This document shows, in pieces, positions 35,056-58,735 of a DNA stretch of 64,000 bases; the stretch's first letter is position 1, and every line of letters starts with the position of its first letter. The stretch lies in assembly GCF_900142625.1 (NCBI RefSeq), contig NZ_FRBN01000004.1, positions 1 to 64,000 on the forward strand, given 5' to 3'. The notes under the pieces were generated by a model that saw only the letters and a program-made list of their open reading frames with translations, searched no databases and was not told the origin of the DNA. Origin of the DNA: Roseovarius marisflavi (GTDB lineage Bacteria > Pseudomonadota > Alphaproteobacteria > Rhodobacterales > Rhodobacteraceae). A program made the position numbers and the translations under genes.

Positions 35056-36078
35056 GTGATCCCTGAGGCCCTTGGCCGTGGCGCGACCCTTGCGGGCACC
35101 TTGACCACCACCGGCGACGGCGGCATGACCGAAGAAGAGCGCGGCCATTCCAAAACGCTGGTCTACCAGGTGCTGCCCTCGCGCTATGGCATGAACCCCG
35201 ATGACCTGCGGCGCGCCGATGCGATCGAGGTCGTGATCGGTCAGGGCGCCAAGCCGGGCGGCGGCGGCATGCTTCTGGGGCAAAAGATCACCGACCGGGT
35301 CGCCGAGATGCGCACCCTGCCCAAGGGCATCGACCAGCGCTCGGCCTGTCGTCACCCCGATTGGACCGGCCCCGACGATCTTGAAATCAAGATCCTCGAA
35401 CTGCGCGAAATCACCGGCTGGGAAAAGCCGATCTATGTGAAAATCGGCGGCACGCGGCCCTATTATGACACCACTCTGGCGGTCAAGGCGGGGGCCGATG
35501 TGGTGGTTCTCGACGGCATGCAAGGCGGCACAGCAGCCACCCAGGACGTGTTCATCGAACACGTCGGCCTGCCGACGCTGGCCTGTATCCGCCCCGCCGT
35601 TCAGGCGCTTCAGGACATGGGCCTGCACCGCGAGGTACAGCTTGTGGTTTCGGGCGGCATCCGCACCGGGGCCGATGTGGCCAAGGCGCTTGCGCTTGGC
35701 GCGGATGCAGTTGCCATCGGCACCGCCGCCATGGTCGCACTTGGCGACAACGATCCGCGATGGGAATCCGAGTATAACGCGCTTGGCACCACCACCGGCG
35801 CCTATGACGACTGGCACGAAGGCCGCGACCCGGCCGGCATCACCACCCAGGACCCGACCCTTTCGGCGCGCCTTGATCCGGTTGCGGCGGGTCGGCGTCT
35901 GCGCAATTATCTGGCCGTTCTCACGCTTGAGGCCCAGACAATCGCGCGCGCCTGCGGTCACAACAACCTGCACAACCTTGAACCCGAAGACCTCTGCGCG
36001 CTGACGATGGAAGCGGCCGCAATGGCGCGCGTGCCGCTTGCCGGCACCACGTGGATCCCCGGTCAGGGCGGGTTCTGA
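35056..36078 (+). pseudogene. FMN-binding glutamate synthase family protein (GlxD/MgsC type), N-terminally truncated
   Basis: Similarity to the about 440-residue GlxD/methylglutamate-synthase subunit begins abruptly at EALGRGATLAGT (about 35065) and continues intact to the end (TTTGDGGMTEEERGHSKTLV, QGAKPGGGGMLLGQKITDR, QRSACRHPDWTGPDDLEIKI, GGIRTGADVAKALALGADAV). About 100 N-terminal residues, including the GMSFG-type FMN-site strand, are absent. A GTG at 35056 could give 340 residues, and the frame stays open back to 34966 without family-like sequence. The glxB and glxC partners expected upstream are missing. It is probably inactive. It lies 67 bases before glnT, its usual neighbour. Confidence 0.75.
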
Positions 36079-36145
36079 ACACACCTGCCCCCGGCACAGA
36101 TGTCCGGGGGCCAATTAATGAACGACAACAGGGAAAAGCAAAGAC

Positions 36146-37453
36146 ATGGCCAAGGATCTTGCTCAATTCGCCGCCGAGAACGGCGTAAAATATTTCATGG
36201 TATCCTACACCGATCTGTTCGGCGCGCAGCGCGCCAAGATGGTCCCCGCCCAGGCGATTGCCGGCATGCAAAAGGACGGCGCCGGCTTTGCGGGTTTTGC
36301 CACATGGCTTGACCTGACCCCGGCGCATCCCGACATGCTTGCCGTGCCTGACCCGGAGGCGGTCATCCAACTTCCCTGGAAGCCCGAGGTCGCCTGGGTG
36401 CCCGCCAATTGCGTGATGGATGACGCCAAGCTTTCGCAGGCGCCGCGCAACGTGCTTTTGCGCCAGATCAAAGCCGCCGCCGATATGGGGCTGACCATCA
36501 AGACCGGCATCGAGGCGGAATTCTTCCTGCTTGATCCCACCGGGGTCGAGGTCTCGGACAAGTTCGATACCGCCGAGAAACCCTGTTACGATCAACAGGC
36601 GATCATGCGCCGCTATGACGTGATTGCCGAGATCAGCGATTACATGCTCGATCTGGGCTGGGGCCCCTATCAGAGCGACCACGAAGACGCCAACGGCCAG
36701 TTCGAGATGAACTGGGAATTCGACGATGTGCTGGCCACCGCCGACAAGCATTCCTTCTTCAAGTTCATGGTCAAATCCGTCGCCGAGAAACACGGGCTGC
36801 GCGCCACCTTCATGCCCAAACCCATTCAGGGGCTGACCGGCAACGGCTGTCACGCGCATATCTCGATCTGGGACAAGGCGGGCAAGACCAACCTCTTTAC
36901 CGACGGCACCCACGACCTTGGCATGTCCGACACCGGCTGGCATTTCCTTGGCGGGATCATGAAACACGCCTCGGCGCTTGCGGCGATCACCAACCCGACC
37001 GTCAACAGCTATAAGCGCATCAATGCCCCGCGCACCATGTCGGGGGCCACATGGGCGCCCAATACCGTGACATGGACCGGCAACAACCGCACCCATATGG
37101 TGCGCGTGCCCGGCGCCGGGCGGTTTGAATTGCGCCTTCCCGATGGCGCGGCCAACCCCTACCTCATGCAGGCGGTGATCATCGCCGCGGGTCTGTCGGG
37201 CATCAACAGCAAGGCCGACCCCGGCAAGCGGCTTGATATCGACATGTACAAGGACGGCCACACCGTCAAGGATGCGCCGCCCCTGCCCCTCAACATGCTC
37301 GACGCCCTGCGCTTTTTCGATCAGGACAGCGCGCTTAAATCCGCCCTCGGCGATGAGTTTTCAGCCGCCTTCATGAAGCTCAAGCATCAGGAATGGAATG
37401 CCTTCGTGTCGCATTTCTCTCACTGGGAACGCGAAAACACACTCGATATCTAA
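36146..37453 (+). CDS. glnT: Type III glutamine synthetase
   Basis: A 435-residue ATP-dependent amide ligase of the GlnT/GMA-synthetase group. Catalytic features: GIEAEFFLLDPTG, the beta-grasp N-terminus (MAKDLAQFAAENGVKYFMVS), ANGQFEMNWEF, GNGCHAHISIWD and RVPGAGRFELRLPDG (metal and ATP sites). Members make glutamine or gamma-glutamylmethylamide from methylamine; the link with GlxD-type genes fits N-methylglutamate chemistry, but here the partner is truncated. A strong terminator follows 38 bases later. Confidence 0.9.
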   Translation: MAKDLAQFAAENGVKYFMVSYTDLFGAQRAKMVPAQAIAGMQKDGAGFAGFATWLDLTPAHPDMLAVPDPEAVIQLPWKPEVAWVPANCVMDDAKLSQAPRNVLLRQIKAAADMGLTIKTGIEAEFFLLDPTGVEVSDKFDTAEKPCYDQQAIMRRYDVIAEISDYMLDLGWGPYQSDHEDANGQFEMNWEFDDVLATADKHSFFKFMVKSVAEKHGLRATFMPKPIQGLTGNGCHAHISIWDKAGKTNLFTDGTHDLGMSDTGWHFLGGIMKHASALAAITNPTVNSYKRINAPRTMSGATWAPNTVTWTGNNRTHMVRVPGAGRFELRLPDGAANPYLMQAVIIAAGLSGINSKADPGKRLDIDMYKDGHTVKDAPPLPLNMLDALRFFDQDSALKSALGDEFSAAFMKLKHQEWNAFVSHFSHWERENTLDI

Positions 37454-39034: not shown

Positions 39035-39769
39035 GTGACCGCCGCCCAAGAAACGCTTGATGTCACCGTCCATCGCGGCACCACCCGTGGCGCGCGCTAT
39101 GACAGCTTTCAGGTCCCCGCCCACGCAAGCCAGACCGTGCTTGATGTGGTCTCGTGGATTCAGCAGTTCGCCGATCCGACCCTTAGCTATCGCTTTGCCT
39201 GTCGGGTTGGCATGTGCGGGTCTTGCGCGATGATGGTCAACGGCACCCCGCGCTGGACCTGCCGCACCCATATCAAAAAGGTCGCGCCCGACGGCAAGCT
39301 GTTGATCGAGCCGCTGCGCAATCTGCCGGTGATCAAGGATCTGGCCGCCGACATGGACCCGTTCTTTGACAAATGGACCGCCGCCGAGGCCCAGCATCAC
39401 CCAAGCCAGACCCGCCATGACCCGATTGAACCCATCGACCCGACCGACGCCACCCGCGCCGAGGCCGATCTTGGCGTCGAATGCATCAACTGCGCGATCT
39501 GCTATGCCGCCTGTGACACGGTGGCGGGCAATCCCGATTATCTCGGCCCCGCCGCCCTGCAACGCGCCTGGACCCTTTTGAACGATAGCCGCGACGATGG
39601 CCGTCAGAGCATCCTTGACGCGGTCTCGGGCACCGGGGGCTGTCACAACTGTCACTCGATGGGAAGCTGCGCGCAATATTGCCCCAACGACCTTAACCCG
39701 ATGCGCGCCATTGCCGGGCTGAAACGCGAAACCGCGAAATCGTTTTTCAAGGGTAAACGCAATGCTTGA
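39035..39769 (+). CDS. Succinate dehydrogenase/fumarate reductase-like iron-sulfur subunit
   Basis: A 244-residue ferredoxin-fold electron carrier starting with GTG at 39035. [2Fe-2S] ligands in CRVGMCGSCAMMVNGTPRWT with a following Cys; [4Fe-4S]/[3Fe-4S] ligands in CINCAICYAACD and CHNCHSMGSCAQYCPND. It transfers electrons between the flavoprotein (40435) and the membrane quinone site. It precedes, rather than follows, the other subunits, unlike canonical sdhCDAB. Confidence 0.88.
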   Translation: MTAAQETLDVTVHRGTTRGARYDSFQVPAHASQTVLDVVSWIQQFADPTLSYRFACRVGMCGSCAMMVNGTPRWTCRTHIKKVAPDGKLLIEPLRNLPVIKDLAADMDPFFDKWTAAEAQHHPSQTRHDPIEPIDPTDATRAEADLGVECINCAICYAACDTVAGNPDYLGPAALQRAWTLLNDSRDDGRQSILDAVSGTGGCHNCHSMGSCAQYCPNDLNPMRAIAGLKRETAKSFFKGKRNA

Positions 39770-40094
39770 TCTGCGTCTTTACATGCTGCAACGGCTCACC
39801 GCGCTTGTGATGGCGCCCTTGGTTCTGGGCCACCTCGCGGTGATGATCTATGCCATTCAGGGCGGGCTAAGCACCGCCGAAATCCTTGGGCGCACACAGG
39901 GCAGCGCGCTTTGGTTCGCCTTTTACGGCCTCTTCGTCATTGCCGTTTCGATCCACGCCGCCATCGGCCTGCGGGTGATCGCGCATGAATGGCTCGCCCT
40001 CAAAGGCGCGGCGCTCTCGCTCCTCACATGGGGCGCCTGCGCCGCCCTGCTCTTTCTTGGCCTCAGCGCCGTTTTCGTGGTGACCGTGCCATGA
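39762..40094 (+). CDS. SDH/fumarate reductase-like membrane anchor subunit 1
   Basis: A 110-residue protein with three helices (for example LTALVMAPLVLGHLAVMIYA, FAFYGLFVIAVSIHAAIGLR, LLTWGACAALLFLGLSAVFV). The histidines in VLGHLAVM and SIHAAIG are candidate haem b ligands. It overlaps the iron-sulfur gene by eight bases and the second anchor by four (ATGA). Confidence 0.8.
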   Translation: MLDLRLYMLQRLTALVMAPLVLGHLAVMIYAIQGGLSTAEILGRTQGSALWFAFYGLFVIAVSIHAAIGLRVIAHEWLALKGAALSLLTWGACAALLFLGLSAVFVVTVP

Positions 40095-40432
40095 AGGCCC
40101 CTGCCCGCTCTCATCCGCTTTGGTTTGCCTTTGTGTTGCACCGGGTCTCGGGCCTTGGCCTTGCGCTGTTCCTGCCCGCGCATTTTTGGCTGTTGTCACA
40201 GGCGTTGACCAACCCTGCGCGCCTTGACGGGTTTCTGGCCTTCGCCGAAATGCCTCTGGTCAAGCTGGCCGAGTTCGGCCTCGTCTTCCTGCTTGCGGTG
40301 CATATGTTCGGCGGTCTTCGCCTTTTGGCGCTTGAATTCCTGCCCTGGTCGGACCGCCAGAAGACCCTGGCGGCGGGGGCGGCTGGCGTCGCTTTCCTGA
40401 TCTCTACCACCTTTTTCCTGAAAGCGATATAG
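40091..40432 (+). CDS. SDH/fumarate reductase-like membrane anchor subunit 2
   Basis: A 113-residue protein from ATG 40091 with three predicted helices. LHRVSGLGLALFLPAHFWLL is the classic SdhC-type HRxSG quinone-site motif; a histidine in LAVHMFGGLRLLALE may bind haem. It pairs with the preceding anchor to hold the complex in the inner membrane. Two bases separate it from the flavoprotein gene. Confidence 0.82.
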   Translation: MKAPARSHPLWFAFVLHRVSGLGLALFLPAHFWLLSQALTNPARLDGFLAFAEMPLVKLAEFGLVFLLAVHMFGGLRLLALEFLPWSDRQKTLAAGAAGVAFLISTTFFLKAI

Positions 40433-40434
40433 CC

Positions 40435-42198
40435 ATGGCCTCCCCCACAGAGATCGATCGCCATGACACCGATATCCTGATCATCGGCACCGGCGGCGCG
40501 GGGCTTTTCGCGGCCCTTCACGCCCAGCAATCCGCACCGCCGGGCACCCGCATCACCATCGCCGTCAAGGGGTTGATCGGCAAATGCGGCTGCACCCGGA
40601 TGGTGCAGGGCGGCTATAACGTGGCGCTTGGCGGCGGTGATACCGTCGAGCGGCATTTCATGGATACAATCCGGGGCGGCAAATGGCTCCCCAATCAGGA
40701 TATGGCCTGGAAGCTTTGCGAACAGGCGGTCGTGCGCATTCGCGAGCTTGAGAACGAAGTCGGCTGTTTCTTTGACCGCAATCCGGACGGAAGCCTGCAC
40801 CAGAAGGCCTTCGCCGGGCAGACGGCGGATCGCACCGTGCACAAGGGCGACCTTACGGGGATCGAGATCATCAGCCGCCTGATGGAACAGGTGCTGTCGC
40901 GCCCGGTTGAAAAGCTTCAGGAACACCGCGCCATCGGCCTTATCCCGACGGCGGACAAAAGCGCGCTTGCCGGGGTCCTGTTCATCGACATGCGCACGGG
41001 CCGCTTTCGCCTTGTGCGCGCCAAGACGGTGATGATGGCGACGGGCGGCGGCCCGACCATGTACAAATATAACACCCCCTCGGGCGACAAGACGATGGAT
41101 GGCCTTGCCATGGCCCTGCGCGCCGGGCTTGAACTGCGCGATATGGAAATGGTGCAGTTTCATCCCACCGGTCTTCTGGCGGGCGATCACACCCGGATGA
41201 CCGGCACCGTCCTCGAAGAGGGTCTGCGCGGCGCGGGCGGGCAATTGCTCAACGGTGCACAGAACCGCTTTATGTTCGATTACGACCCAAAGGGCGAACG
41301 CGCCACCCGCGATGTGGTCAGCCGGGGCATCTATTCCGAGATGCGCAAGAACAACACCTCGGAAAATGGCGGCGTGTTCATCTCGATGGCGCATCTTGGC
41401 CCCGACAACGTGCGCGCCAAGTTTCCCGGCATGGTCAAACGCTGCGCCGACAGCGGCTTTGATCTCGCCGCCGGTCTGGTCGAGGTGGTGCCGACCGCGC
41501 ATTACTTCATGGGCGGCGTGGTGGTTGATGCCGATACCCGCACCGCGCTTGAAGGGCTTTACGTGGCCGGTGAGGATGCCGGCGGCGCGCATGGCTCCAA
41601 CCGTCTTGGCGGCAACGGCGTGGCCAATTCCACCGTCTATGGCGGCGTCGCGGGCGACACGATGGGCGCCGACATTCGCAAGATGGGCGCCCTGCGCGAC
41701 CCCTGCCCCACAACGTTGCAGGCCGAGGTTGACCGCGCCCTGCACCCGCTCACCCGCAAGCCCGATCTTGTCCAACCCCTGCGCCACGCCCTGCAAGAGG
41801 CGATGTGGGAAGATGTCGGCGTGTTGCGCACCGAAACCGGCCTCACGCGCGCACAGACCCGCGTTGCCGATATTTCGGATGCGCTCATGGAGGTCGGCGT
41901 CGCCTCCGACAACCTCGCCTTCAACCTGACATGGCATGACTGGCTGAATTTGCGCTCGCTTTGTGATATATCTCAGGCCATCGCCCTGGCCGGCCTTGAA
42001 CGCGAAAATTCCCGCGGCGCGCATTACCGCGAGGATTTCCCCGACGAGGGCGACCTTGATGCGTCTTACTTCACCGTCGTGACGCAAACCGGCGGCGACC
42101 TCGCCGTGCGCCGCGACCCCGTCGATTTCAGCATCGTTCGCCCCGGCGAGACCATCCTGCCCGACGGCGAACCCGAAACACTGGTAGCTGCACAATGA
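40435..42198 (+). CDS. SDH/fumarate reductase-like flavoprotein subunit with altered FAD site
   Basis: A 587-residue FAD protein. ADP-binding LIIGTGGAGLFAALHA at the start, catalytic HPTGLLAGD, substrate Arg in LEEGLRGAGGQL, VVPTAHYFMGGV and SNRLGGNGVANSTVYG. The covalent-FAD histidine of SdhA/FrdA (SHT) is replaced by GCT (Cys53), so FAD is probably non-covalent. With its own FeS and membrane subunits it should exchange electrons with quinone. Operon context (class I fumarase-like hydratase) suggests a C4/C5 dicarboxylate other than, or besides, succinate. Confidence 0.88.
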   Translation: MASPTEIDRHDTDILIIGTGGAGLFAALHAQQSAPPGTRITIAVKGLIGKCGCTRMVQGGYNVALGGGDTVERHFMDTIRGGKWLPNQDMAWKLCEQAVVRIRELENEVGCFFDRNPDGSLHQKAFAGQTADRTVHKGDLTGIEIISRLMEQVLSRPVEKLQEHRAIGLIPTADKSALAGVLFIDMRTGRFRLVRAKTVMMATGGGPTMYKYNTPSGDKTMDGLAMALRAGLELRDMEMVQFHPTGLLAGDHTRMTGTVLEEGLRGAGGQLLNGAQNRFMFDYDPKGERATRDVVSRGIYSEMRKNNTSENGGVFISMAHLGPDNVRAKFPGMVKRCADSGFDLAAGLVEVVPTAHYFMGGVVVDADTRTALEGLYVAGEDAGGAHGSNRLGGNGVANSTVYGGVAGDTMGADIRKMGALRDPCPTTLQAEVDRALHPLTRKPDLVQPLRHALQEAMWEDVGVLRTETGLTRAQTRVADISDALMEVGVASDNLAFNLTWHDWLNLRSLCDISQAIALAGLERENSRGAHYREDFPDEGDLDASYFTVVTQTGGDLAVRRDPVDFSIVRPGETILPDGEPETLVAAQ

Positions 42199-43151
42199 TC
42201 TCCATCGACCTCATTCAAAAGACCGCCGAAACCCTGATGGACAAGGCCGCCATCGAGATCCCCGACGATTACCTCTCGGGTCTCAAATCCGCCGCCAAAA
42301 CCGAGGATGGCGATCTGTCGTCTTTCGTCCTGCAGGCGATGCTTGAAAACTATCAGGCCGCCAAGGAAGACCGCCGCGCCATGTGCGGCGATACCGGCAC
42401 CCCGCGCTGGTACGTCAAGATGGGCAACAAAACGCAGATCGAAGGCGGCCCCATCGCGCTAGAGGCCGCTTTGCGCCGCGCCACCGCCAATGCCACCAAC
42501 GGCGTGCCGTTGCGGCCCAACCGGGTGCATCCGCTCTGGCGCACCGATCACAACAACAACGTCGGCATCGGCGCGCCCGAGATCGAATACGGCTATGAAC
42601 CGGGCGGCGAATGGATCGACCTCATTACCGTTCACAAGGGCGGCCTTTTCGGCACCGATTACCGCATGCTGTTCCCGAGCGACGGCATTCAGGGCATCAA
42701 ACGCTTTTATCTCGATAGCCTTGTCGCCTTTGGCAAACGCGGTCTTGCCTGCCAGCCGGCGATCATCGGCATCGGCCTTGGCGGGTGTAAGGATACCTGC
42801 ATGGTGCTTGGCAAACGCGCCGCCTGTCTTCGGGTGGTCGGCGATCGCAACCCCGACCCCAAGATCGCCGCGCTTGAGGATGAATTCAAAGAGCTAGGCA
42901 ATTCCATCGGCATGGGCGCCATGGGCTTTGTCGGCAAGAATATGGTGATCGATTGCAATATCGAGGTCGGCTATTGCCACACTGGCGGCATGCAGATGTC
43001 GGTGCATGCCTTCTGCCTCTCGTCACGTCGCGCGGTGGCGCGGGTGCATGCCGACGGGCGCGTCGAATACCGCACCGATCCTGAATGGTTCACCGATTAT
43101 CAGCGCCGCGATACCATCGAGTGGCACCCCGAGATGGCCGCCGCCGAATGA
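42195..43151 (+). CDS. Class I fumarase-like hydro-lyase, alpha subunit
   Basis: A 318-residue subunit equivalent to the N-terminal half of class I fumarase or TtdA of tartrate dehydratase. FeS-cluster cysteines are visible in AMCGDTGTPRWYVK, GIGLGGCKDTCMV and GYCHTGGMQMSV. With the beta subunit at 43618 it would reversibly hydrate fumarate, mesaconate or tartrate-type acids. It overlaps the flavoprotein stop by four bases and the CoA-transferase start by four. Confidence 0.87.
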   Translation: MISIDLIQKTAETLMDKAAIEIPDDYLSGLKSAAKTEDGDLSSFVLQAMLENYQAAKEDRRAMCGDTGTPRWYVKMGNKTQIEGGPIALEAALRRATANATNGVPLRPNRVHPLWRTDHNNNVGIGAPEIEYGYEPGGEWIDLITVHKGGLFGTDYRMLFPSDGIQGIKRFYLDSLVAFGKRGLACQPAIIGIGLGGCKDTCMVLGKRAACLRVVGDRNPDPKIAALEDEFKELGNSIGMGAMGFVGKNMVIDCNIEVGYCHTGGMQMSVHAFCLSSRRAVARVHADGRVEYRTDPEWFTDYQRRDTIEWHPEMAAAE

Positions 43152-43621
43152 TCGCCACCGGCCCCCTTTCCGGCCTTCGGGTGCTTGATCTCACCCATGT
43201 GCTGGCCGGGCCCTATGCCACCGGGCAACTGGCCCTGATGGGCGCCGAGGTGATCCGCGTCGAGCGCCCCGACAGCGACGATTTCGTCCGCACCCACGGC
43301 GGCACGCCGGACATGCGCGCAAAAGGTCTTGGCGCGTCCTTTCTCAGCCAGAACAGCGGCAAGAAATCCGTGGTGCTTGATCTCAAATCCGACACCGGGC
43401 GCGCCACTTTCCTCGATCTCGCCGCCACCGCCGATATCGTGACCGAAAACTTTCGCCCCGGCGTGACCGAGCGCCTTGGAGTCGATTACGACAGCCTGCG
43501 CGCGCCCGCGCTGCCGTTTCGCGCGCCTTGGGCGCCGCGCACCCTTGCCCCGGCTCCGACATGCGGGCGCGACACGTCCGAGATCCTCGCCACCCTTACC
43601 CCACAGGAGGCCCCCCGATGA
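43148..43621 (+). pseudogene. Class III (CaiB/BaiF) CoA-transferase with internal deletion
   Basis: A 157-residue product against the usual 380-400. Residues 1-117 are a perfect family N-terminus (LSGLRVLDLTHVLAGPYATG, EVIRVERPDSDDF, NSGKKSVVLDLKSDTGR, VTENFRPGVTERLGVDY). The sequence then jumps, in frame, to the family C-terminus (APAPTCGRDTSEILATL). About 230 residues, including the catalytic aspartate, are gone. It remains translationally coupled to both fumarase-like subunits by ATGA overlaps. It is unlikely to be active. Confidence 0.75.
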
Positions 43622-44286
43622 AAGTGCGCGAAGTCCGCCTGAGCACCACCCCGACGCCAGAGGCCATCGCCGATCTGCGGCTTGGCGATATCGTCTATCT
43701 CGACGGGCTGCTCTATACGGCGCGCGAGGGCGTCTACATGCGCGCGCTCGAAGAACAGGCGAATATCCCGATGGAATTGCCAAGCCAGAGCGCCGCCAAT
43801 TTCCATTGCTCCCCCGCCGCCGCCATTCGCGAGGACGGTAGTTTTGACATGGGCGCGGTGACCGCCACCGCCTCGTTCCGCTTCGCCAAATGGCTGCCGG
43901 AATGGATCGCCAAGACCGGCGCGAAACTGATCATCGGCAAGGGCGGCATGTCGTCCAGGGACTACAAGGAATACTTCGTGCCCAACGGCGCGGTCTACCT
44001 CTCGACCGTCGGCTATGGCACCGGCGCTTTGCTGGGCCGCGGCATCGAAAAGGTCGAGGCCGTGCATTGGCAAGACGAGCTTGGTTTGGCCCAGGCCATG
44101 TGGGTGATCCGCTGCAACCGCATGGGGCCCTTCATCGTCGCCTCGGACATGGAGGGCAACTGCCTGTTCGAGCGCGAAAACGCCAAGATCGTGCAAAATC
44201 TCGACCGGGTGTACGAGGGCACCCGCCCGGCGGTACTCAAGCGCTATGGCGAAACCGATGACCGCTCCGACGAAGTTATCGGCTAA
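43618..44286 (+). CDS. Class I fumarase-like hydro-lyase, beta subunit
   Basis: A 222-residue subunit equivalent to the C-terminal half of class I fumarase/TtdB: YLDGLLYTAREGVYMRALEE, ASFRFAKWLPEWIAKTG, LIIGKGGMSSRDYKEYFVPN and VHWQDELGLAQAMWV. It forms the (alpha beta)2-type enzyme with the 42195 product and starts inside the stop of the deleted CoA-transferase. Last gene of the operon. Confidence 0.88.
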   Translation: MKVREVRLSTTPTPEAIADLRLGDIVYLDGLLYTAREGVYMRALEEQANIPMELPSQSAANFHCSPAAAIREDGSFDMGAVTATASFRFAKWLPEWIAKTGAKLIIGKGGMSSRDYKEYFVPNGAVYLSTVGYGTGALLGRGIEKVEAVHWQDELGLAQAMWVIRCNRMGPFIVASDMEGNCLFERENAKIVQNLDRVYEGTRPAVLKRYGETDDRSDEVIG

Positions 44287-44782
44287 CCCCGCGAGACGGC
44301 CCGTCAGGGCTGGCGGGCCACCCCGCTCACCCTATCGCGCCGCATTTCAGTCCTGCCAATGCACCGCCTCGACCTGTTCGCAAGCCGCCGGATACCTTCT
44401 TGGTGTGCTTGATAATGTAAGCTCAGCCGCTTTGGATGATGGTGAGTTCGACGAAAGGGACTATATCCTGACCGACGGCGTTTCCTATAACATCGGCAAA
44501 ATTCAGGAACCGACCAACAGCGGCCGTTTACGCTCGGGGATGGAACCAATCTGAGCTTTGATCCCTCGTTGCGTCGAGGCGTGTCAATTACGCAACCCAA
44601 TCAGGTCTGGTGCCGCTTGGCATCCCGGTTTGGTCTGACCCAAACAGCGACCGACCTGACAGGTGTCTTTCCCTGGACCTGTCGACTGCCCGGGAACGCC
44701 TTGCGAAAAGGCTTGATCGCGGCGCACAACTGCACGATGCTAGACGTATCCGCATTCCACTTAGAGTAACGTCAGTTTAGGA
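44287..44782. other. Intergenic stretch after the fumarase-like operon
   Basis: No gene is recognised. A frame around 44400-44550 reads YLLGVLDNVSSAALDDGEFD then ERDYILTDGVSYNIGKI, protein-like but without a start, a ribosome site or a known family; it may be a gene remnant. Confidence 0.35.
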
Positions 44783-45307
44783 ATGGGAAAGCCAATGATC
44801 AGGAATTCATTTATCGCGGCGGGGCTGTTGACTGTGATGTTTGGCGGGATCGCTGATGCGGCGACGTTTAACCTTGAGTATACGTTGGGATCCGGCGATG
44901 TTGTGACCGCCACAGTCCAAGGGGCTGTGAATTCAGGCGATGCCAATCTGGTGAACGTGGCGTCGGTAAGCGATGCGGCGTTCAACGGTTTATCTTTTGG
45001 GCCGCTGGGATTTTCGGCGTCGACACTCGGTGCCGCAGATGGAAGCGGAATCCTGAGCTTTGATGGGTTGGCGACAGAGTTCCTTGCCTGCGACAGCAGC
45101 GCTTGCAGTGAGGGTTTTCTGATCTCCGTTGCCGATACATTCGGTGCGCCAGTGTACATCAGCTCGACTTTCTTTTCAGGGGCTTTTGAAGAATTCGACT
45201 CTGCCCGCTACTCGCTTTCGGCGGTGCCGCTGCCAGCGGCGATGCCTTTGTTGCTGGCGGCACTTGGCGGTCTGGGTTTCATTGCCCGCCGTCGCAAGGC
45301 CGCCTGA
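44783..45307 (+). CDS. VPLPA-CTERM sorting-domain protein
   Basis: A 174-residue exported protein (ATG 44783 or 44795). An N-terminal signal (ending AIADA-AT) precedes a beta-rich body and a C-terminal sorting signal SAVPLPAAMPLLLAALGGLG followed by ARRRKAA: a PLPA motif, a hydrophobic helix and basic tail. VPLPA-CTERM proteins are thought to be recognised by an exosortase-type system and displayed at the envelope or in exopolysaccharide. The body has no known domain. A strong terminator follows. No exosortase gene is in the window. Confidence 0.88.
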   Translation: MGKPMIRNSFIAAGLLTVMFGGIADAATFNLEYTLGSGDVVTATVQGAVNSGDANLVNVASVSDAAFNGLSFGPLGFSASTLGAADGSGILSFDGLATEFLACDSSACSEGFLISVADTFGAPVYISSTFFSGAFEEFDSARYSLSAVPLPAAMPLLLAALGGLGFIARRRKAA

Positions 45308-45335
45308 CACAGCACCGCTCGTTAAAAGTAACATG

Positions 45336-45362
45336 CGGGCGGCTTCGGTCGCCCGTTTTTGT
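45336..45362 (+). terminator. Terminator after the VPLPA-CTERM gene
   Basis: CGGGCG and CGCCCG arms around GCTTCGGT, followed by five Ts, G and three Ts. Confidence 0.85.
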
Positions 45363-45397
45363 TTGCATCCTCAAGATCTGCAGCCTATCTAAAAGGA

Positions 45398-45763
45398 ATG
45401 ATGAATTTGCGGACCATATTTCAAACCTTCCTGCTGAGCCTGATCATGGCGATGGCGGCGAATGGTATGGCGATGGCCTCAAATAGCGTGATGCATCAAG
45501 GTCAATGCGCGCATGCGGCATCAGATGCGACACAAACCGCGCCGATGGTCATGGATCACACACACCAAACCGCGACGAGCGGCGAAACGGCATCTGATCA
45601 TGACCACGAGACCTGCATGATGCATGCCTGCTCGGCTGTGGCCTATGAGTCGCACGGGGCTTTTGCGATCTCTGTTTTGCTTTCTGCGGCAATCGCGTCG
45701 AACGAGAAAGAGCTTGTGGCGCTTGAGCGCGCCGATAGCCTTTTGAGGCCTCCAAATACCTGA
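45398..45763 (+). CDS. Exported His/Met-rich hypothetical protein
   Basis: A 121-residue protein from ATG 45398 (or 45401; AAAAGGA is upstream). A signal peptide ends near AMAS. The mature part is rich in His, Met and Cys (MDHTHQTATSGETASDHDHE followed by TCMMHACS), resembling periplasmic copper-handling proteins. It precedes the copper operon and may bind Cu(I). No named family is recognised. Confidence 0.6.
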   Translation: MMNLRTIFQTFLLSLIMAMAANGMAMASNSVMHQGQCAHAASDATQTAPMVMDHTHQTATSGETASDHDHETCMMHACSAVAYESHGAFAISVLLSAAIASNEKELVALERADSLLRPPNT

Positions 45764-45847
45764 TCTCCGGCTGTGCCGGATCTGAATGAGCGGGACGCAC
45801 GGTTGACGTGATTGTCCTGCATTGCGTTCTATCGATCAGGAAAAATC

Positions 45848-46081
45848 ATGAAATTTTATATTGTTCTGGGCTTTCCCATAGCCCTTGCGGCCTGTGGCGC
45901 GGTGACCGAGCCGCAAGCGCCAACCCGATTGGCAGCCGCCGCCACCCCTGAGGCCACCCATAGCCATGCCAGCTCGCCTTCGCTGCTGACCGGCTATGCA
46001 GCGCGCGCCATCAAAGGGCCCGCCTCCTGGCGCGAACTGAATGAGCGGCAATCGCCCGATCACAAGGGGGCTCACGAATGA
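45848..46081 (+). CDS. Small lipoprotein of the copper-efflux operon
   Basis: A 77-residue protein from ATG 45848 (AGGAAAAATC upstream). Lipobox ALAAC (Cys16) in a short signal; mature part APTRLAAAATPEATHSHASS and a C-terminal SWRELNERQSP. It overlaps the TolC-family gene by four bases, so it belongs to the export system; similar short proteins with a PxSWxxLN motif accompany such operons. Function unknown. Confidence 0.6.
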   Translation: MKFYIVLGFPIALAACGAVTEPQAPTRLAAAATPEATHSHASSPSLLTGYAARAIKGPASWRELNERQSPDHKGAHE

Positions 46082-47550
46082 GAGTATCCCGCAAATCAGG
46101 GCTGGCGCTGTCCGTGGCCCTGCTGATCTCGGCCTGTACCTCGCCACAGCAGGTGGCAAAGTTTGCCGATCCAAAAGCCGCGTTTGCACCGGTTTCCGAC
46201 AGTGGGCGCAAGGTCTTGGGCAAGGACACCGCCCTTTTGATGGATGTCCCCGCGATCGAGGCCAATGCCAAGCGCGTGCATGCCATGGTTCAGGGCAAGA
46301 CGCTTGACGCGGATACCGCCGTGCAAGTGGCGCTCTTGAACAATCGCGGCCTTCAGGCGGCCTATGCGCAGCTGGGCGTGTCCTCGGCCGAGGCCTGGCA
46401 ATCCGTCATGATGCCCAATCCGGTGGTTTCCATCGGGGTACTTGGGATCAATGCTGACGGGGTCGGGGCGTTCCGCTCCATCGAGGGGGTGATTGCCAAC
46501 AACCTGCTGGCGGCGTTCACACAAGAGGGCCGCAGCCACGCGGCGGATGTCAAATTTCGTCAGGCACAGCTTACTGCGGTCGAGAAGACCCTGAGCGTTG
46601 CGGTCGATACCCGGCGCGCCTGGGTCGATGCCGTGGCCGCCTTCGAGGCCGCCGGGTTGATCCGCGAGGCCCAGGGAACCGCCGATGCCGCGTCGGAACT
46701 GGCGGCACGGCTTGGCGATACCGGCTATCTCAACAAGGCCGATCAGGCGCGCGAACATGCGTTCTACGCCGAGCTGACCGGCCAGCGGGCACAGGCCAAA
46801 CTTGCCGCCACGCTGGCGAAAGAGGCGTTGACCCGGCAAATGGGTCTTTGGGGGCAGGACGTGACTTATTTCGTGCCCAATGCCCTGCCACGCCTGCCCG
46901 GACAGGTGAAAAGCCGCCCGCATATCGAGCGCGATGCGCTCAAGTCGCGGGTCGACCTGGCGATTGCGCGGCTTGATCTGGACAGCATGGCAAAAGCGCG
47001 CGGAATGACCGAAGCGACGCGATACGTCACCGATCTGGAACTGGTGGTCGGGGCCGAACTGGAACGCGAGAATGACGGCGGCGGCATCGAAACGAAGACC
47101 ACGCCACAGGTCGAGCTTGATTTCGCGATCCCGATTTTCGACAGCGGCAAGGCGCGCCTGAAACGGGCCGAAGCGGCCTATATGCTGGCGGCGCATCAGC
47201 TCGCCGAACGGGCGGTGAATGTGCGCTCCGAGGCGCGCGCGGCCCATGCGTCTTACCTCGGAACGCACCAGATCGCGCGTCACTATCGCAATGCGGTTCT
47301 GCCGCTGCGCCAGACCATCGAGGAAGAGGCGCTGCTGTCTTACAACGGCATGATCACCAACACATTCGAGCTTTTGGCAGACACCCGCGCGCGGTTGAAT
47401 TCCAACCTGACCGAGGCGAGTGCACGACGCGACTTCTGGCAGGCCGAGGCCAATCTTGTGGCCGCAGTGCATGGCGGCGGTGGCGGTGGCGCGGGCAGCG
47501 GTGGTGATACTCAGGCATCGGTGGCCGGTGACGGCTCCGGCGGGCATTGA
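46078..47550 (+). CDS. TolC family outer-membrane efflux lipoprotein
   Basis: A 490-residue protein with a lipoprotein signal (LISAC, Cys about 20) like CusC-type factors. Two outer-membrane efflux repeats are expected: VQVALLNNRGLQAAYAQLGV (first) and ALKSRVDLAIARLDLDSMAK (second), with coiled-coil helices between. A glycine-rich C-terminal tail (GGGGGGAGSGGDTQASV) is unusual. No inner-membrane pump or adaptor is adjacent. It likely exports copper or another substrate with a pump encoded elsewhere. Confidence 0.82.
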   Translation: MRVSRKSGLALSVALLISACTSPQQVAKFADPKAAFAPVSDSGRKVLGKDTALLMDVPAIEANAKRVHAMVQGKTLDADTAVQVALLNNRGLQAAYAQLGVSSAEAWQSVMMPNPVVSIGVLGINADGVGAFRSIEGVIANNLLAAFTQEGRSHAADVKFRQAQLTAVEKTLSVAVDTRRAWVDAVAAFEAAGLIREAQGTADAASELAARLGDTGYLNKADQAREHAFYAELTGQRAQAKLAATLAKEALTRQMGLWGQDVTYFVPNALPRLPGQVKSRPHIERDALKSRVDLAIARLDLDSMAKARGMTEATRYVTDLELVVGAELERENDGGGIETKTTPQVELDFAIPIFDSGKARLKRAEAAYMLAAHQLAERAVNVRSEARAAHASYLGTHQIARHYRNAVLPLRQTIEEEALLSYNGMITNTFELLADTRARLNSNLTEASARRDFWQAEANLVAAVHGGGGGGAGSGGDTQASVAGDGSGGH

Positions 47551-47563
47551 AAAGGAACATAAG

Positions 47564-48919
47564 ATGATGAACAGACGTCAACTTCTCACTGCCGGCGCGG
47601 GCCTGATGGCCACCGGTGCAATGGCAAAATCCCAAAATATGGGCCTCCCCGAGGCGGCGGTGATGGACAATGCCTCCACGCAAGCCCCGCTCAGGCCCAA
47701 TTCCGGTCCCGACTATAACCCGGTGGTCACGCTCAATGGCTGGACGCTGCCCTATCGCATGAACGGCAACGTCAAGGAATTCCATCTGGTCGCCGAGCCG
47801 GTGGAACGCGAGCTTGCCGATGGCATGACCGCCTATCTCTGGGGCTATAATGGCCAATCCACCGGCCCCACGATCGAGGCGGTCGAGGGCGACAGGGTAC
47901 GCATTTTCGTCACCAACAAGCTGCCGGAACATACCACGGTGCATTGGCACGGCCTCATCCTGCCCTCGGGCATGGATGGCGTCGGCGGGCTTAGTCATCC
48001 CGGCATTCCGCCCGGCAAAACCTTTGTCTACGAGTTCGATCTCGTGAAATCGGGCACCTTCATGTATCACCCGCATGCCGATGAAATGGTGCAGATGGCA
48101 ATGGGGATGATGGGCATGTTCATCGTCCACCCCAAAGACCCGACCTTCATGCCGGTGGATCGCGATTTCTGCATCATGCTCAACGCCTTCGACATTGATC
48201 CGGGCACCTATATTCCGCGTGTGATGACGATGACCGAGTTCAATCTCTGGACCTGGAACAGCCGGGTCTTTCCCGATATCGACCCGCTGGTGGTGGGCCT
48301 TGGCGACCGGGTGCGCGTGCGCGTCGGAAATCTGACCATGACAAATCACCCGATCCACATGCATGGCTATGACTTCGAGGTGACCTGCACCGATGGTGGC
48401 TGGGTTCCGCCCGAGGCGCGTTGGCCCGAGGTGTCGATCGACATTCCCGTCGGCGCGATGCGCGCCTACGAGTTTGACGCGGTTCATCCCGGCGATTGGG
48501 CGATCCACTGTCACAAGTCACATCACACGATGAACGCCATGGGCCATGACGTGCCCAATTTCATCGGGGCAGACAAACGCGCGCTCACAAACATGATCCG
48601 CAAACATCAGCCGGAGTATATGCCGATGGGCACTGCGGGCATGGCGGATATGGCTGTAATGTCTATGGAAATCCCCGACAATACCGTGCCGATGATGACC
48701 GGCTGGGGTCCGCATGGGCCGATTGAAATGGGCGGCATGTTTTCGGTCGTGAAGGTGCGTGATGGCATCGAGGCGAACGATTACTCCGATCCCGGCTGGT
48801 ACGAGAACCCGCCCGGCACCGAGGCCTATGAATGGACCGGCGAGTTGCCGGAATTCACCTCTAATGAAAAAGCTCAAACCATCCTGACACCCCGCCCGGA
48901 CACGGCGCGGAAATCCTGA
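47564..48919 (+). CDS. Multicopper oxidase
   Basis: A 451-residue periplasmic oxidase (ATG 47564 or 47567). A Tat-like signal begins NRRQLLTAGAGLMATGAMA. Copper ligands: HWHGLILP, YHPHADEM, NHPIHMHGYDF and IHCHKSHHTMNAMGH (the HCHxxxH type-1/3 signature). A Met-rich C-terminal region (MPMGTAGMADMAVMSMEIP) resembles copper-tolerance oxidases that oxidise Cu(I) to the less toxic Cu(II). It lies between the TolC gene and the cupredoxin. Confidence 0.92.
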   Translation: MMNRRQLLTAGAGLMATGAMAKSQNMGLPEAAVMDNASTQAPLRPNSGPDYNPVVTLNGWTLPYRMNGNVKEFHLVAEPVERELADGMTAYLWGYNGQSTGPTIEAVEGDRVRIFVTNKLPEHTTVHWHGLILPSGMDGVGGLSHPGIPPGKTFVYEFDLVKSGTFMYHPHADEMVQMAMGMMGMFIVHPKDPTFMPVDRDFCIMLNAFDIDPGTYIPRVMTMTEFNLWTWNSRVFPDIDPLVVGLGDRVRVRVGNLTMTNHPIHMHGYDFEVTCTDGGWVPPEARWPEVSIDIPVGAMRAYEFDAVHPGDWAIHCHKSHHTMNAMGHDVPNFIGADKRALTNMIRKHQPEYMPMGTAGMADMAVMSMEIPDNTVPMMTGWGPHGPIEMGGMFSVVKVRDGIEANDYSDPGWYENPPGTEAYEWTGELPEFTSNEKAQTILTPRPDTARKS

Positions 48920-48936
48920 ATCAACGGAGAGACACA

Positions 48937-49476
48937 ATGAGAAAACTTATCCTGACGACAAGCATCCTGGCAGTATCGGCAAGTCTGGCATTCGCCGCCG
49001 GAACCCATGGTGGCGGCCACGGCCACGACGCAGGTCATATGAAAACGCAAGACGGTCACGGCCATGGCGCGGGTCATATGGACATGATGCAGATCGGCAT
49101 GACGGGCGACACGACGAAAATTGATCGCATCGTCACGGTTACCATGATGGAAACCGCCGATGGCGATATGCTTTTTGAACCGCGCGACCTGATGTTTGCC
49201 GAAGGCGAGACCGTTCATTTCAAGATCACCAATGCCGGTGAGATCGACCATGAGTTTGTCATGGATACCTTCGCCAATAACGAAAAGCACCGTGCGCTGA
49301 TGATGAAGTTCCCCGAGATGGAACATGATGATCCCAATTCGGTGCGCCTGGCTCCCGGCGAAAACGGCGAGATCATCTGGACCTTCGCTAATGCAGGCGA
49401 ATTCAACTTTGCCTGCCTGATACCGGGCCACATGGAAATGGGCATGCATGGCCCGCTCAATGTGACGTCTAATTGA
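48937..49476 (+). CDS. Cupredoxin-domain copper protein
   Basis: A 179-residue exported protein. A signal ends at FAA; a His/Gly/Met-rich linker (about 20-60, GGGHGHDAGHMKTQ) leads to a plastocyanin/azurin-like domain with type-1 ligands His (EIDHEFVMD) and Cys-His-Met (ACLIPGHMEMGM). It would bind one copper and pass electrons or copper to the oxidase or cytochrome nearby. It is 17 bases after the oxidase gene, in one operon. Confidence 0.9.
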   Translation: MRKLILTTSILAVSASLAFAAGTHGGGHGHDAGHMKTQDGHGHGAGHMDMMQIGMTGDTTKIDRIVTVTMMETADGDMLFEPRDLMFAEGETVHFKITNAGEIDHEFVMDTFANNEKHRALMMKFPEMEHDDPNSVRLAPGENGEIIWTFANAGEFNFACLIPGHMEMGMHGPLNVTSN

Positions 49477-49500
49477 CCCCATAACCCGAAAGGAAACGCT

Positions 49501-49782
49501 ATGAACCTCATCAAATCCACCCTTCTGGGCTTTGCGATCACAACCGCAACCGGTGCCTTCGCAGAGCCGGTCTTTACCAAGGGCGTCGTCAAGAAAGTGG
49601 CCCCTGATGCGGGCAAGGTCACCATAATTCACGAAGAGCTGGTCAATCTGGACATGCCCGCGATGACCATGGTCTTTCGCGTCGCCGACGAGGCCATGTT
49701 CGAACAGCTTGAACCCGGCGACGATATCGAATTCGTCGCGGACCGGGTGAATGGAAAGCTGACCGTCACCGACCTGAAATAG
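49501..49782 (+). CDS. CusF-like periplasmic copper-binding protein
   Basis: A 93-residue exported protein with the CusF beta-barrel: KKVAPDAGKVTIIHEELVNL, then DMPAMTMVFRV. The Cu(I) ligands His44, Met55 and Met57 match CusF His/Met/Met, but the cation-pi tryptophan of CusF is Met52 here, which would alter copper protection. It probably ferries Cu(I) to the efflux system. A GAAAGGAAAC ribosome site precedes the ATG. Confidence 0.85.
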   Translation: MNLIKSTLLGFAITTATGAFAEPVFTKGVVKKVAPDAGKVTIIHEELVNLDMPAMTMVFRVADEAMFEQLEPGDDIEFVADRVNGKLTVTDLK

Positions 49783-49890
49783 GCAACAGCTTTTGGGCGC
49801 AGGATGAATGTGCGCCCAAACCGCCACCCGGATGGGCGATGCCACCGCAATTACCCGGCCATCTAATCAACGCAGAAAGAGGATTTCCAT

Positions 49891-50316
49891 ATGCGAAAAC
49901 CCATCATTTTCATCGGAGTTGTTGCTGTCGGTATTGCGGCCTATTTCCTTGCTCAGCCCCCAAAACCGACGCCTGCGCCAGCCGCAGGTCAAGCCGGTGC
50001 AATCGCGTCGGTACGGCTGCCGGAAACACTATCGCCGGATGCATCAATTGGAAAAACCGCATATCAGGCGAAATGCGCAAACTGCCACGGAGACAACGCG
50101 GCCGGAAAGCACGGTGTCGGCCCACCTTTGGTTCATAAAGTCTATGAGCCGTCCCATCATGGCGATGAGGCCTTTCAACGCGCAGCCGCACTTGGCGTGC
50201 GTGGCCATCATTGGCCTTTTGGGGATATGCCCCCGATCAAGGGTGTAACCCGCGCCGATGTTACAATGATCGTCGCCTATGTTCGGGACTTGCAGCGTTT
50301 TAACGGTATCAACTGA
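49891..50316 (+). CDS. Membrane-anchored cytochrome c
   Basis: A 141-residue monohaem cytochrome with an uncleaved-looking N-terminal helix (IIFIGVVAVGIAAYFLAQ), a linker rich in Pro/Ala, CANCHG haem attachment (about 66-71) and a distal Met in GDMPPIKG. It probably accepts electrons from the oxidase or cupredoxin system. Last clear gene of the copper operon. Confidence 0.87.
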   Translation: MRKPIIFIGVVAVGIAAYFLAQPPKPTPAPAAGQAGAIASVRLPETLSPDASIGKTAYQAKCANCHGDNAAGKHGVGPPLVHKVYEPSHHGDEAFQRAAALGVRGHHWPFGDMPPIKGVTRADVTMIVAYVRDLQRFNGIN

Positions 50317-50706
50317 TAAGGATCGGCTCCGGCTGAGTGCAAAACAGGGCGGTAAGGACGTTGTCCCATTCGCACAGGTGAGATAGCGGCCCTCCGCTGC
50401 GTAGGGTATGAACCGAGAAGATGCGGATAAAGCGCCATGTCGCTGCGGCTTCGCCAACGGCTTTTAAGGTCTCAATTATTCAATTTGTTCAAAACCAAAG
50501 AGACACGCCAAGGGCTTTGAATATAAATCAAGCGCTTGCACCGCGATAGTTTGCCAGTGTTCCAGCCAAAAGCAGCCGAGACAGAGGCGGCAATAAACGG
50601 CGCCATTCCGAACAGCGGCGACGAAGCCGGTGGATGAGGGGGATTCCGGCATAGAGGGCGGACAGCATGACAAGCTGCAAAATGATCAGCCTGGACAGGG
50701 CCGCGA
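50317..50706. other. Intergenic stretch before the TetR remnant
   Basis: No gene supported. A minus-strand open frame around 50530-50750 (LSRLIILQLVMLSALYAGIP) is hydrophobic but has no start context; it may be a small remnant. Confidence 0.35.
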
Positions 50707-51213
50707 TTGCAGGGCATCGCGAAACAGGCGCGTGCATCAAATGAAACACTGTACAACTGGTACGGGGACAAGCAGGGCCTGTTCAAGGCTCTGGTCACCC
50801 GCAACGCCGCCGAAGTCAAAACCCTGCTTGAGGCGGGACTGGCCGCAGATCGCGATGCACTGTCGATCCTTGGCCTGCTCGGCCCAAGACTGCTCGCCCT
50901 ATTGCTGGGCAACCGCGCAATTGCGCTGAACCGTGCTGCCGCAGCAGACCCAAGTGGGGCACTCGGGAGGACTTTGTCGCAGGCAGGGCGCGAATCCATT
51001 TTGCCGTTGTTGATGGAGGTGCTCGAGGCTGCCAGGCACAAGGGCCAGCTGACATTCGACACGACAGAAACAGCGGTGGGTCTCTACCTCGATCTCTTGC
51101 TCGGGGATTTGCAAATCAGGCGCGTGATCGGACGCCAGCCACCGCCCACAGCCGAGTTTTTCGTCGCTCGCTCCGAAAGGGCAATGAAACTCTTGCGGCA
51201 CGTCCTGTCGTGA
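50707..51213 (+). pseudogene. TetR/AcrR family regulator, N-terminus lost
   Basis: The frame from 50707 (TTG) opens inside the HTH: GIAKQARASNETLYNWYGDK, then QGLFKALVTRNAAEV, and continues as a normal TetR ligand-binding domain (LLGNRAIALNRAAAADPSGA, ending AMKLLRHVL). The first helices of the DNA-binding domain, about 30 residues, are absent and no upstream sequence supplies them. It probably no longer binds DNA. It adjoins the copper operon, which it may once have regulated. Confidence 0.6.
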
Positions 51214-51455
51214 CCATGCAGCCAAAACGTGACGCACCGTATTGATCGCGCGACTGAACTGAAACCAGCAGAGGGCTTGCCTGCCAAAACACCAGCCAGG
51301 CTGGCAGAAGTGTTGAGCAATGTCCGGGCAAAGGCGGAAATGGCTGGATGGGATCAGGCCTGGCCGAAACGGTGTTGTCGCGTTAACTGTGCGAAAAACG
51401 CGGAAAGGCATCCTTATCAAGGGTCTTGTGGCTCACGCAGATCGATATTCGGCAC

Positions 51456-53110: not shown

Positions 53111-53256
53111 GACGCCCCTTTATCGTAAGTTTATCTAACAAATGCTGTAACGCAATATTGCTTATCTTAAGGTTCTCTTAACGATACTACTGATCGCGAC
53201 GGCGTTGCAATGAGCCATTGATAAGGCCGCATAAAAAGACAGTGGAGGAGGAAATC

Positions 53257-58592: not shown

Positions 58593-58655
58593 CGCCCTGC
58601 CCTCTTCTGCCCCAGGATTTTTTCCTGTCGGCGCCTGCTCTCACCCTCTAGTATG

Positions 58656-58735
58656 CCTCAAAAGGCACCCGTCCTCAATCATTCTCTAGGCACCCGTTTA
58701 CGGGGGGCGGTGATCCCGCAAACGGGTACTTATGA
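58656..58735. promoter_or_regulatory. Inverted and direct iteron copies in front of rep
   Basis: AGGCACCCGTTTACGGGG (58688-58705) is the reverse complement of the iteron unit; TCCCGCAAACGGGTACTTAT (58714-58733) is in direct orientation; AAAGGCACCCGT near 58661 is a partial third. Opposed half-iterons at a rep promoter commonly mediate Rep autorepression. Confidence 0.6.

Follow-up and report, generated by a model that had tools for sequence, protein, structure and literature searches.

The 64,000-nucleotide stretch of Roseovarius marisflavi DNA analysed here (contig NZ_FRBN01000004.1; the window) contains an operon of seven plus-strand genes at 39035-44286, whose neighbours overlap or sit a few bases apart. 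We propose that this operon encodes a quinone-linked 3-sulfopropanoate dehydrogenase and a 3-sulfoacrylate hydratase, which together would yield 3-sulfolactate, and we put the probability of this assignment at roughly two in three. The proposal builds on gene content, on the conservation of the proteins, on their association with sulfonate and sulfite genes, and on the co-occurrence of the operon with ComE. An earlier note on this DNA had described abutting or overlapping genes for a complex resembling succinate dehydrogenase (SDH), a fumarase-like hydratase and a CoA-transferase; gene calls and Pfam agree with these seven identities, and 7/7 proteins pass the Pfam gathering score. The genes are the following.

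39035-39769, plus strand: SdhB-like iron-sulfur subunit of the proposed 3-sulfopropanoate dehydrogenase; GTG start; Pfam Fer2_3 and Fer4_17; TIGR00384 dhsB, 191 bits (cut-off 88)
39762-40094, plus strand: membrane anchor 1, SdhD-like; Pfam Sdh_cyt, 37.8 bits (cut-off 25.8)
40091-40432, plus strand: membrane anchor 2, SdhC-like; Pfam Sdh_cyt, 42.3 bits; also matches TIGR02970
40435-42198, plus strand: SdhA-like flavoprotein; Pfam FAD_binding_2 and Succ_DH_flav_C; alignment to solved SDH and fumarate reductase (FRD) structures; conservation
42195-43151, plus strand: HydA, alpha subunit like that of class I fumarase and tartrate dehydratase, of the proposed 3-sulfoacrylate hydratase; Pfam Fumerase, 220 bits
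43148-43621, plus strand: remnant (157 aa) of a class III CoA-transferase; Pfam CoA_transf_3, positions 1-109 of 366; comparison with L005, L006 and L007
43618-44286, plus strand: HydB, class I fumarase-like beta subunit; Pfam Fumerase_C, 71.9 bits (cut-off 22.2)

In the proposed pathway, TctCBA, encoded further downstream, would import 3-sulfopropanoate, a succinate analogue with a sulfonate in place of one carboxylate, or else a similar sulfonate. The SdhABCD-like complex would oxidise it to 3-sulfoacrylate and pass the electrons through its iron-sulfur subunit and anchors to an acceptor predicted to be quinone, and HydAB, a class-I-fumarase-like Fe-S enzyme, would hydrate 3-sulfoacrylate to 3-sulfolactate as the likely product. 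Enzymes encoded elsewhere could then convert 3-sulfolactate via sulfopyruvate to sulfite, the genome itself having ComE; TauE, together with the PSE protein where present, may dispose of sulfite or sulfate or carry sulfonates, in a direction that for TauE is likewise a prediction. Each enzyme is a homologue of one that acts on the carboxylate isostere, and the whole would be a sulfonate copy of the segment leading from succinate via fumarate to malate.

The chemistry has a counterpart in the literature. A passage of PMC11489063 cites the thesis of J. Mayer for a homotaurine route in R. nubinhibens ISM that runs via 3-sulfopropanoate, sulfoacrylate and sulfolactate, in the genus to which the window's nearest relatives belong; the passage gives the route only and names no genes. 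Passages of the same paper name a TauE homologue as a probable 3-sulfopropionate exporter and describe 3-sulfopropanoate as a product of the anaerobic breakdown of sulfoquinovose and 2,3-dihydroxypropane-1-sulfonate (DHPS). The degradation of homotaurine by P. pantotrophus NKNCYSA is mentioned in a passage of PMC12421959. Passages of PMC11489063 and PMC5320631 report that Cupriavidus necator H16 releases 3-sulfopropanoate as a by-product when it uses homotaurine; strain N-1 carries the operon on plasmid pBB1. Within the parts of the open-licence PMC literature that our search covered, we found no gene named for a 3-sulfopropanoate dehydrogenase or a sulfoacrylate hydratase. If our assignment is true, the operon provides the genes for the route known from the thesis citation (PMC11489063), and SDH and class I fumarase have been adapted to isosteric sulfonates: homotaurine, 3-sulfopropanal, 3-sulfopropanoate, sulfoacrylate, sulfolactate and sulfopyruvate parallel gamma-aminobutyrate, succinic semialdehyde, succinate, fumarate, malate and oxaloacetate. 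The operon would then also be a marker for C3 sulfonate turnover in marine and soil bacteria.

Conservation and catalytic subunits of the operon

We compared 108 loci, made up of the best 80 of 381 HydA relatives, eight plasmid regions drawn from 12 records at 65-91% identity, and 20 genome regions. Because only the best 80 relatives were kept, R. nubinhibens ISM not being among them, the set is biased to close relatives, and three locus pairs (L026/L138, L034/L139, L032/L105) have identical SdhA and HydA; L145, L146 and L147 stand outside the 108-locus count. The core of the operon is near-constant, HydA and SdhA being present at all 108 loci and SdhB, each anchor and HydB at 106. HydA orthologues occur in 24 of 198 genomes of the family (our own included), all at 80% identity or more, the rest being without a match at 1e-60; they also occur in 10 of 398 genomes of the phylum at 1e-90, and in 2 of 300 from the order of one genome of another class. 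The named records with the operon include members of Rhodobacterales, Rhizobiaceae, Kiloniellaceae, Methylobacterium, Cupriavidus and Pseudomonas. On plasmid pPAN3 of P. pantotrophus DSM 11072, matches are recorded for SdhA, HydA, HydB, YeiH and NIPSNAP, and none for SdhB or the anchors.

The membrane complex has the complex II layout of a flavoprotein, an iron-sulfur subunit and two Sdh_cyt-type anchors, all above the Pfam gathering score. With SDH and FRD (E. coli SdhA/FrdA, M. smegmatis Sdh1, methanogen TfrA) it shares this four-subunit layout, the FAD and FeS domains and the catalytic His/Glu/Arg/His/Arg set, features by which we assign it to the complex II superfamily; it differs from them in its gene order (B-anchor-anchor-A), in a Cys for the FAD-linking His, in a Glu at the position of FrdA Thr244, and in a longer loop. 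The first of these replacements, Cys53, had been pointed out in the earlier note and is found in all 108 sequences that cover the position (109 aligned); the His that stands there in SDH and FRD presumably links the FAD. His243 is kept in 108/108 covering sequences and Glu262, Arg292, His356 and Arg390 in 109/109, and we take these five to be the equivalents of FrdA His232, Glu245, Arg287, His355 and Arg390, with catalytic and carboxylate-binding roles. Just before the catalytic Glu, at the Thr244 position, all 109 sequences have Glu261, whereas five solved relatives have Thr or Ser, and the longer loop ahead of it carries Thr/Ser at 253 and Arg/Lys at 254 in 109/109. The conserved catalytic residues together with the changed Thr244 position and loop thus suggest that one carboxylate site was retained and the other rebuilt, as would suit a substrate with one non-carboxylate acid group.

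HydAB, with both its Fumerase and its Fumerase_C domain (Pfam), can be placed by sequence in the class I fumarase superfamily. It has the split alpha/beta architecture of the two-subunit class I fumarases and L-tartrate dehydratases (PDB 7xky alpha; TtdAB), and three Cys of HydA, Cys64 and Cys186 (both 109/109) and Cys261 (104/109), align with Cys of 7xky; we take them to be the [4Fe-4S] cluster ligands of class I fumarases. HydA, which passes the subfamily model TIGR00722, differs from these enzymes in forming a sharply separate group, in a further near-invariant Cys202 (108/109), and in its scores: HydA and HydB stay under the fumarase and tartrate dehydratase equivalog cut-offs (bits/cut-off: NF004885 195/276, NF006084 145/365, NF004708 116/269, NF006082 123.5/264). 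The flavoprotein likewise stays under the SDH and FRD equivalog cut-offs (TIGR01816 331.5/727, TIGR01176 295/933, TfrA 477/718) and below the cut-off of every NCBIfam model among the best 25 of 30. Because of these cut-offs of the catalytic subunits and the tested residues, we consider that the enzymes are probably not a plain SDH, FRD, fumarase or tartrate dehydratase.

Sulfonate and sulfite genes around the operon

Near the operon, we found among the 108 loci a LysR regulator (81), a TauE-family permease (76), TctA (51), a thiamine diphosphate (ThDP) enzyme (29), a YeiH-type putative sulfate exporter (17) and a SorA-like protein (9), counts from which tblastn hits with less than 40% query coverage were left out and which are too low because many loci break off less than 8 kb from hydA or where their contig ends. 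Label changes on the 109-locus tree number 23 for TauE and 10 for YeiH, some of them due to such short contigs. In at least 21 of the 34 operon-bearing genomes, hydA has a TauE gene no more than 15 kb away, against an expectation of 1.6 (from 223 TauE genes in some 143 Mb); for a PF00174 protein the number is 6 of the 34, one of them 11 kb off, against an expectation of 0.7; the binomial and Fisher values that go with such counts treat as independent loci that share descent. Several neighbours pass NCBIfam cut-offs (bits/cut-off), namely the sulfite dehydrogenase equivalogs SorT (667/570) in Pseudomonas sp. MPC6 and SorA (696/600) and SoxC (607/420) in Methylobacterium nodulans, two distant lineages, and the sulfopyruvate decarboxylase proteins ComD (157/148) and ComE (233/221.5) beside the operon of L124, which also has a HisD-family dehydrogenase and an FMN-dependent dehydrogenase there. 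Passages of PMC5373536 describe TauE as a sulfite exporter and the PSE protein as a sulfate exporter. A search of the R. marisflavi genome for the YeiH family found none.

ComE also follows the operon at the level of genomes. Of the 34 operon-bearing genomes, 18 have it above cut-off, the R. marisflavi genome among them; of 40 genomes from the same family that lack the operon, 6 do (Fisher P 6e-4). Within the family alone, the numbers are 17/29 against the same 6/40 (P 2e-4); the 40 controls are genomes listed without a HydA match and not a random draw, and the operon-bearing set includes close relatives (G376/G400, G577/G579).

Other neighbours suggest where the substrate might come from and where the product might go. 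At L067 and L072, a gene resembling succinate-semialdehyde dehydrogenase (SSADH) and a zinc alcohol dehydrogenase gene run directly into sdhB, as expected for 3-sulfopropanoate made from 3-hydroxypropanesulfonate or 3-sulfopropanal; the models were run on L067, whose SSADH-like protein reaches 628 bits (cut-off 646). Paracoccus versutus and P. ferrooxidans encode an Ldh-family protein and a hydroxyacid dehydrogenase on the far side of LysR, and the best NCBIfam model for the P. versutus Ldh-family protein is L-sulfolactate dehydrogenase (204 bits, cut-off 500). In the Paracoccus layout, the YeiH exporter comes after the six core genes, and TauE lies two genes further along. The sulfolactate pathway (SlcC/ComC, SuyAB, ComDE, Xsc, TauE and the tripartite tricarboxylate transporter (TTT) SlcHFG) has neighbours in common with the operon and is the probable downstream route; it differs in beginning at sulfolactate, without the SDH-like dehydrogenase and HydAB-type hydratase. 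A passage of PMC5812351 reports that SlcHFG takes up sulfolactate in R. nubinhibens.

The ThDP enzyme occurs near the operon in alpha- and non-alphaproteobacterial lineages (e.g. L034:1623-3254, L121:8606-10231). The L034 enzyme resembles acetolactate synthase and 2-hydroxyacyl-CoA lyase, below the cut-offs of its best 25 models, and might be an alternative sulfopyruvate decarboxylase in place of ComDE; by a hand tally of 12.5- to 20-kb regions, the enzyme is near the operon in 7 of 13 ComE-lacking and 2 of 7 ComE-bearing genomes, which is not significant (P 0.27). Two other genes recur around the operon. A small NIPSNAP-family protein is encoded at 13 of the 108 loci (e.g. L102:15381-15707, L105:14654-14968), 12 of which also have the YeiH exporter, and an amidohydrolase-2 protein follows hydB at the Cupriavidus-like and Methylobacterium-like loci L103, L104, L120, L121, L123 and L146, 57-94% identical to the L103 copy.

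Competing explanations and the CoA-transferase

The same substrate could be hydrated with the other regiochemistry. HydAB would then place the hydroxyl group on the carbon of 3-sulfoacrylate that bears the sulfonate, the resulting bisulfite adduct would decompose into malonate semialdehyde and sulfite, and methylmalonate-semialdehyde dehydrogenase (MMSDH) would lead on to acetyl-CoA. MMSDH genes (TIGR01722, 695 and 702 bits, cut-off 448.5) are found in Pseudomonas MPC6, where the gene overlaps the stop codon of hydB, and in L123, where it precedes the operon; two Cupriavidus plasmids have a homologue (61%) upstream of the operon, and sulfite exporters and dehydrogenases near the operon would fit as well. 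We nevertheless regard this course as rather unlikely: only 10 of the 108 loci have an MMSDH match or a weaker aldehyde dehydrogenase match nearby, ComE co-occurs with the operon, and the thesis route in the passage of PMC11489063 goes via sulfolactate. In this rather unlikely case the operon itself would perform a lyase-free desulfonation, the C-S bond breaking spontaneously after hydration, and the FAD might be held by Cys where SDH uses His. If true, this would be a sulfonate C-S cleavage made wholly of Krebs-cycle-type enzymes.

Sulfosuccinate, which we favoured at first, would be oxidised to sulfofumarate, hydrated at the sulfonated carbon and, with loss of sulfite, converted to oxaloacetate. 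The succinate-type catalytic residues, the TTT and dicarboxylate transporters near the operon and the sulfite genes would all agree with this, but the SSADH-like, MMSDH and ComDE neighbours are left unexplained, as are the changed FrdA Thr244 position and loop, and our literature searches on sulfosuccinate catabolism gave no such route. Since these neighbours and the literature favour 3-sulfopropanoate, we now hold sulfosuccinate to be unlikely. Mercaptosuccinate was considered because sulfinosuccinate gives succinate and sulfite (a passage of PMC5373536), and was dropped because the succinate set free would need no special dehydrogenase.

An ordinary second set of SDH and fumarase for other growth conditions would account for the homology and for the names in public records, where annotated plasmids list the operon genes as succinate dehydrogenase, FAD-binding protein and fumarate hydratase. 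Against it stand the flavoprotein (332/727) and the hydratase (195/276, 116/269), well under the SDH and fumarate hydratase equivalog cut-offs, as well as the altered residues and the sulfur-gene neighbours. Further relatives are encoded in the genome, one of SdhA (G000:C34:83402-85093, 34% identity) and one of class I fumarase (C37:9846-10664, 26% identity), and the operon is therefore not the organism's only SDH and fumarase, a situation that the earlier note had held to speak against its proposal. A plain isozyme is thus very unlikely, and as the sole explanation we reject it on the equivalog cut-offs, the residues and the separate housekeeping relatives. The earlier picture of a membrane dehydrogenase followed by a hydratase, set apart from the housekeeping enzymes and with succinate-type catalytic residues, is upheld.

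The remaining alternative, advanced in the earlier note, is a branched C5 dicarboxylate pathway from methylsuccinate via mesaconate to citramalate, which a CoA-transferase belonging to the ancestral gene set would activate. Class I fumarase relatives are able to hydrate mesaconate, and two full-length CoA-transferases from other loci resemble succinate-glutarate, oxalate and succinyl-CoA:mesaconate types, all far below the cut-offs. Operons with a near-full-length CoA-transferase, of the kind that the note had proposed to look for, do exist, but they are no constant feature: such copies are present in the operon at only 12 of the 108 other loci, 11 between hydA and hydB and 1 behind hydB. This number was obtained from a count of 15 CaiB matches by leaving out L052, L058 and L126 by hand (30-34% identity, outside hydA-hydB), and a check for internal stops covered some of the 12. 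The presence of the gene is scattered over the locus tree, and it is therefore optional in the operon, which gives no support to its place in an ancestral set. In addition, no citramalyl-CoA or malyl-CoA lyase appears in the gene tables of the eight annotated plasmid regions, which are not complete, and no search for one was made at the remaining loci; the neighbourhoods suggest sulfonates, and their sulfite genes would have no place in this pathway. The methylsuccinate route in a passage of PMC12290011 uses an itaconate CoA transferase, an acyl-CoA dehydrogenase and an isomerase. We consider the C5 pathway highly improbable and, with the CoA-transferase at so few loci, reject its CoA-activated form; the earlier note had its chemistry half right and its substrate probably wrong.

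The deletion that this note had recognised in the R. marisflavi CoA-transferase can be traced precisely. Relative to its R. gaetbuli counterpart (L007, encoding 382 aa), the gene has lost exactly 675 bp without a change of frame. The lost segment lay between 11-bp direct repeats, of which one copy is left at 43495-43505; the junction falls within 43494-43505, and the gene has kept its overlaps with hydA and hydB. The protein has the CoA_transf_3 fold of class III CoA-transferases, and differs in being an optional extra of the operon, shortened and mostly lost in the R. marisflavi genome. The 3-sulfinopropionate CoA-transferase is, we assume, a relative in the same class. On a Sulfitobacter plasmid, a gene annotated as 3-sulfinopropanoyl-CoA desulfinase (L108:22745-23917) lies about 9 kb past hydB.

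The assignment to 3-sulfopropanoate, which we prefer, has to be set against several observations that weaken it. No TauE, YeiH or SorA/SoxC match was found at 29 of the 108 loci, some on short contigs and some not. TauE-family proteins are common, with 2 to 10 per genome, and a passage of PMC8873060, which reports TauE permeases in sulfonate clusters and suggests sulfolactate export, calls them poorly characterised. ComE above cut-off is missing from 16 of the 34 operon-bearing genomes, the MMSDH genes near the operon in L102, L123, L103 and L146 (Pseudomonas, Cupriavidus, Methylobacterium-like) suit malonate semialdehyde better than sulfolactate, and anchor 2 is above the SDH cytochrome b equivalog cut-off (TIGR02970, 57.5/52.3), which also speaks for an ordinary SDH. 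A SorA-like molybdopterin protein with an ECxGN motif is encoded directly behind hydB in L020, L056, L073, L075, L125, L132 and L136, and in 7/7 of these loci it is without an Arg common to SorA, SorT and SoxC; by eye, no hydrophobic leader was seen in the five copies with clean starts. As this Arg presumably binds sulfite, the protein may not be a sulfite dehydrogenase, and it possibly has a new function in sulfonate metabolism.

Paracoccus wurundjeri speaks partly for the assignment and partly against it. According to a passage of PMC12421959, this bacterium, when it grows on a sulfosugar, induces a cluster (MDP0926751-0926761) that encodes a TauE homologue and proteins of 'fumarate and tartrate metabolism'. 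This fits the operon, and from the gene layout, rather than from sequence, we infer that the cluster is probably the same operon. Sulfofucose breakdown gives sulfolactate and not 3-sulfopropanoate, and the induction would thus fit our assignment only if the product induces, which counts against it. If the two clusters are the same, then the operon proteins have been taken as possibly belonging to the Krebs cycle even when induced by a sulfosugar (PMC12421959).

Organisation of the wider cluster

The operon as delimited in the earlier note (39035-44286) is half of a cluster, since TauE, LysR and TctCBA follow beyond a 7.16-kb stretch. Downstream of hydB, the window holds the following features.

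44300-51455, no strand assigned: 7.16 kb carrying genes of copper-resistance type, lying between hydB and tauE; comparison with L007 and L005 by blastn
51456-52199, minus strand: TauE/SafE-family permease; PF01925, 108 bits; adjoins hydB in L005 and L007 (synteny)
52196-53110, minus strand: LysR-type regulator; Pfam HTH_1 and LysR_substrate
53218-54234, plus strand: TctC solute-binding protein; PF03401, 116 bits; start uncertain, Pfam scan from 53260
54314-54805, plus strand: TctB small permease subunit; PF07331, 48.7 bits
54802-56292, plus strand: TctA large permease subunit; PF01970, 482 bits

The stretch at 44300-51455 encodes an outer-membrane efflux protein, a multicopper oxidase, a copper-binding protein, a cytochrome c and a TetR C-domain protein, and is missing by blastn from R. 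gaetbuli (L007) and R. lutimaris (L005). In both relatives, the cluster runs on from hydB into TauE, LysR and TctB/TctA, with TctC also present in L005. The copper-gene stretch is an insertion that cuts TauE, LysR and TctCBA off from the operon.

Just past TctA, the region 57321-61650 contains a minus-strand gene for a Rep3-type replication initiator, besides ParA and a weak ParB match, and the upstream part of the contig has genes that by eye resemble fatty-acid synthesis genes; together, these may point to an integrated plasmid or a chromid-like contig. Ahead of the operon, at 35056-37453, a glutamate-synthase-domain protein (best stretch from profile position 85 of 369) is encoded beside a glutamine-synthetase-family gene, a pair that we presume could belong to methylamine (N-methylglutamate) metabolism.

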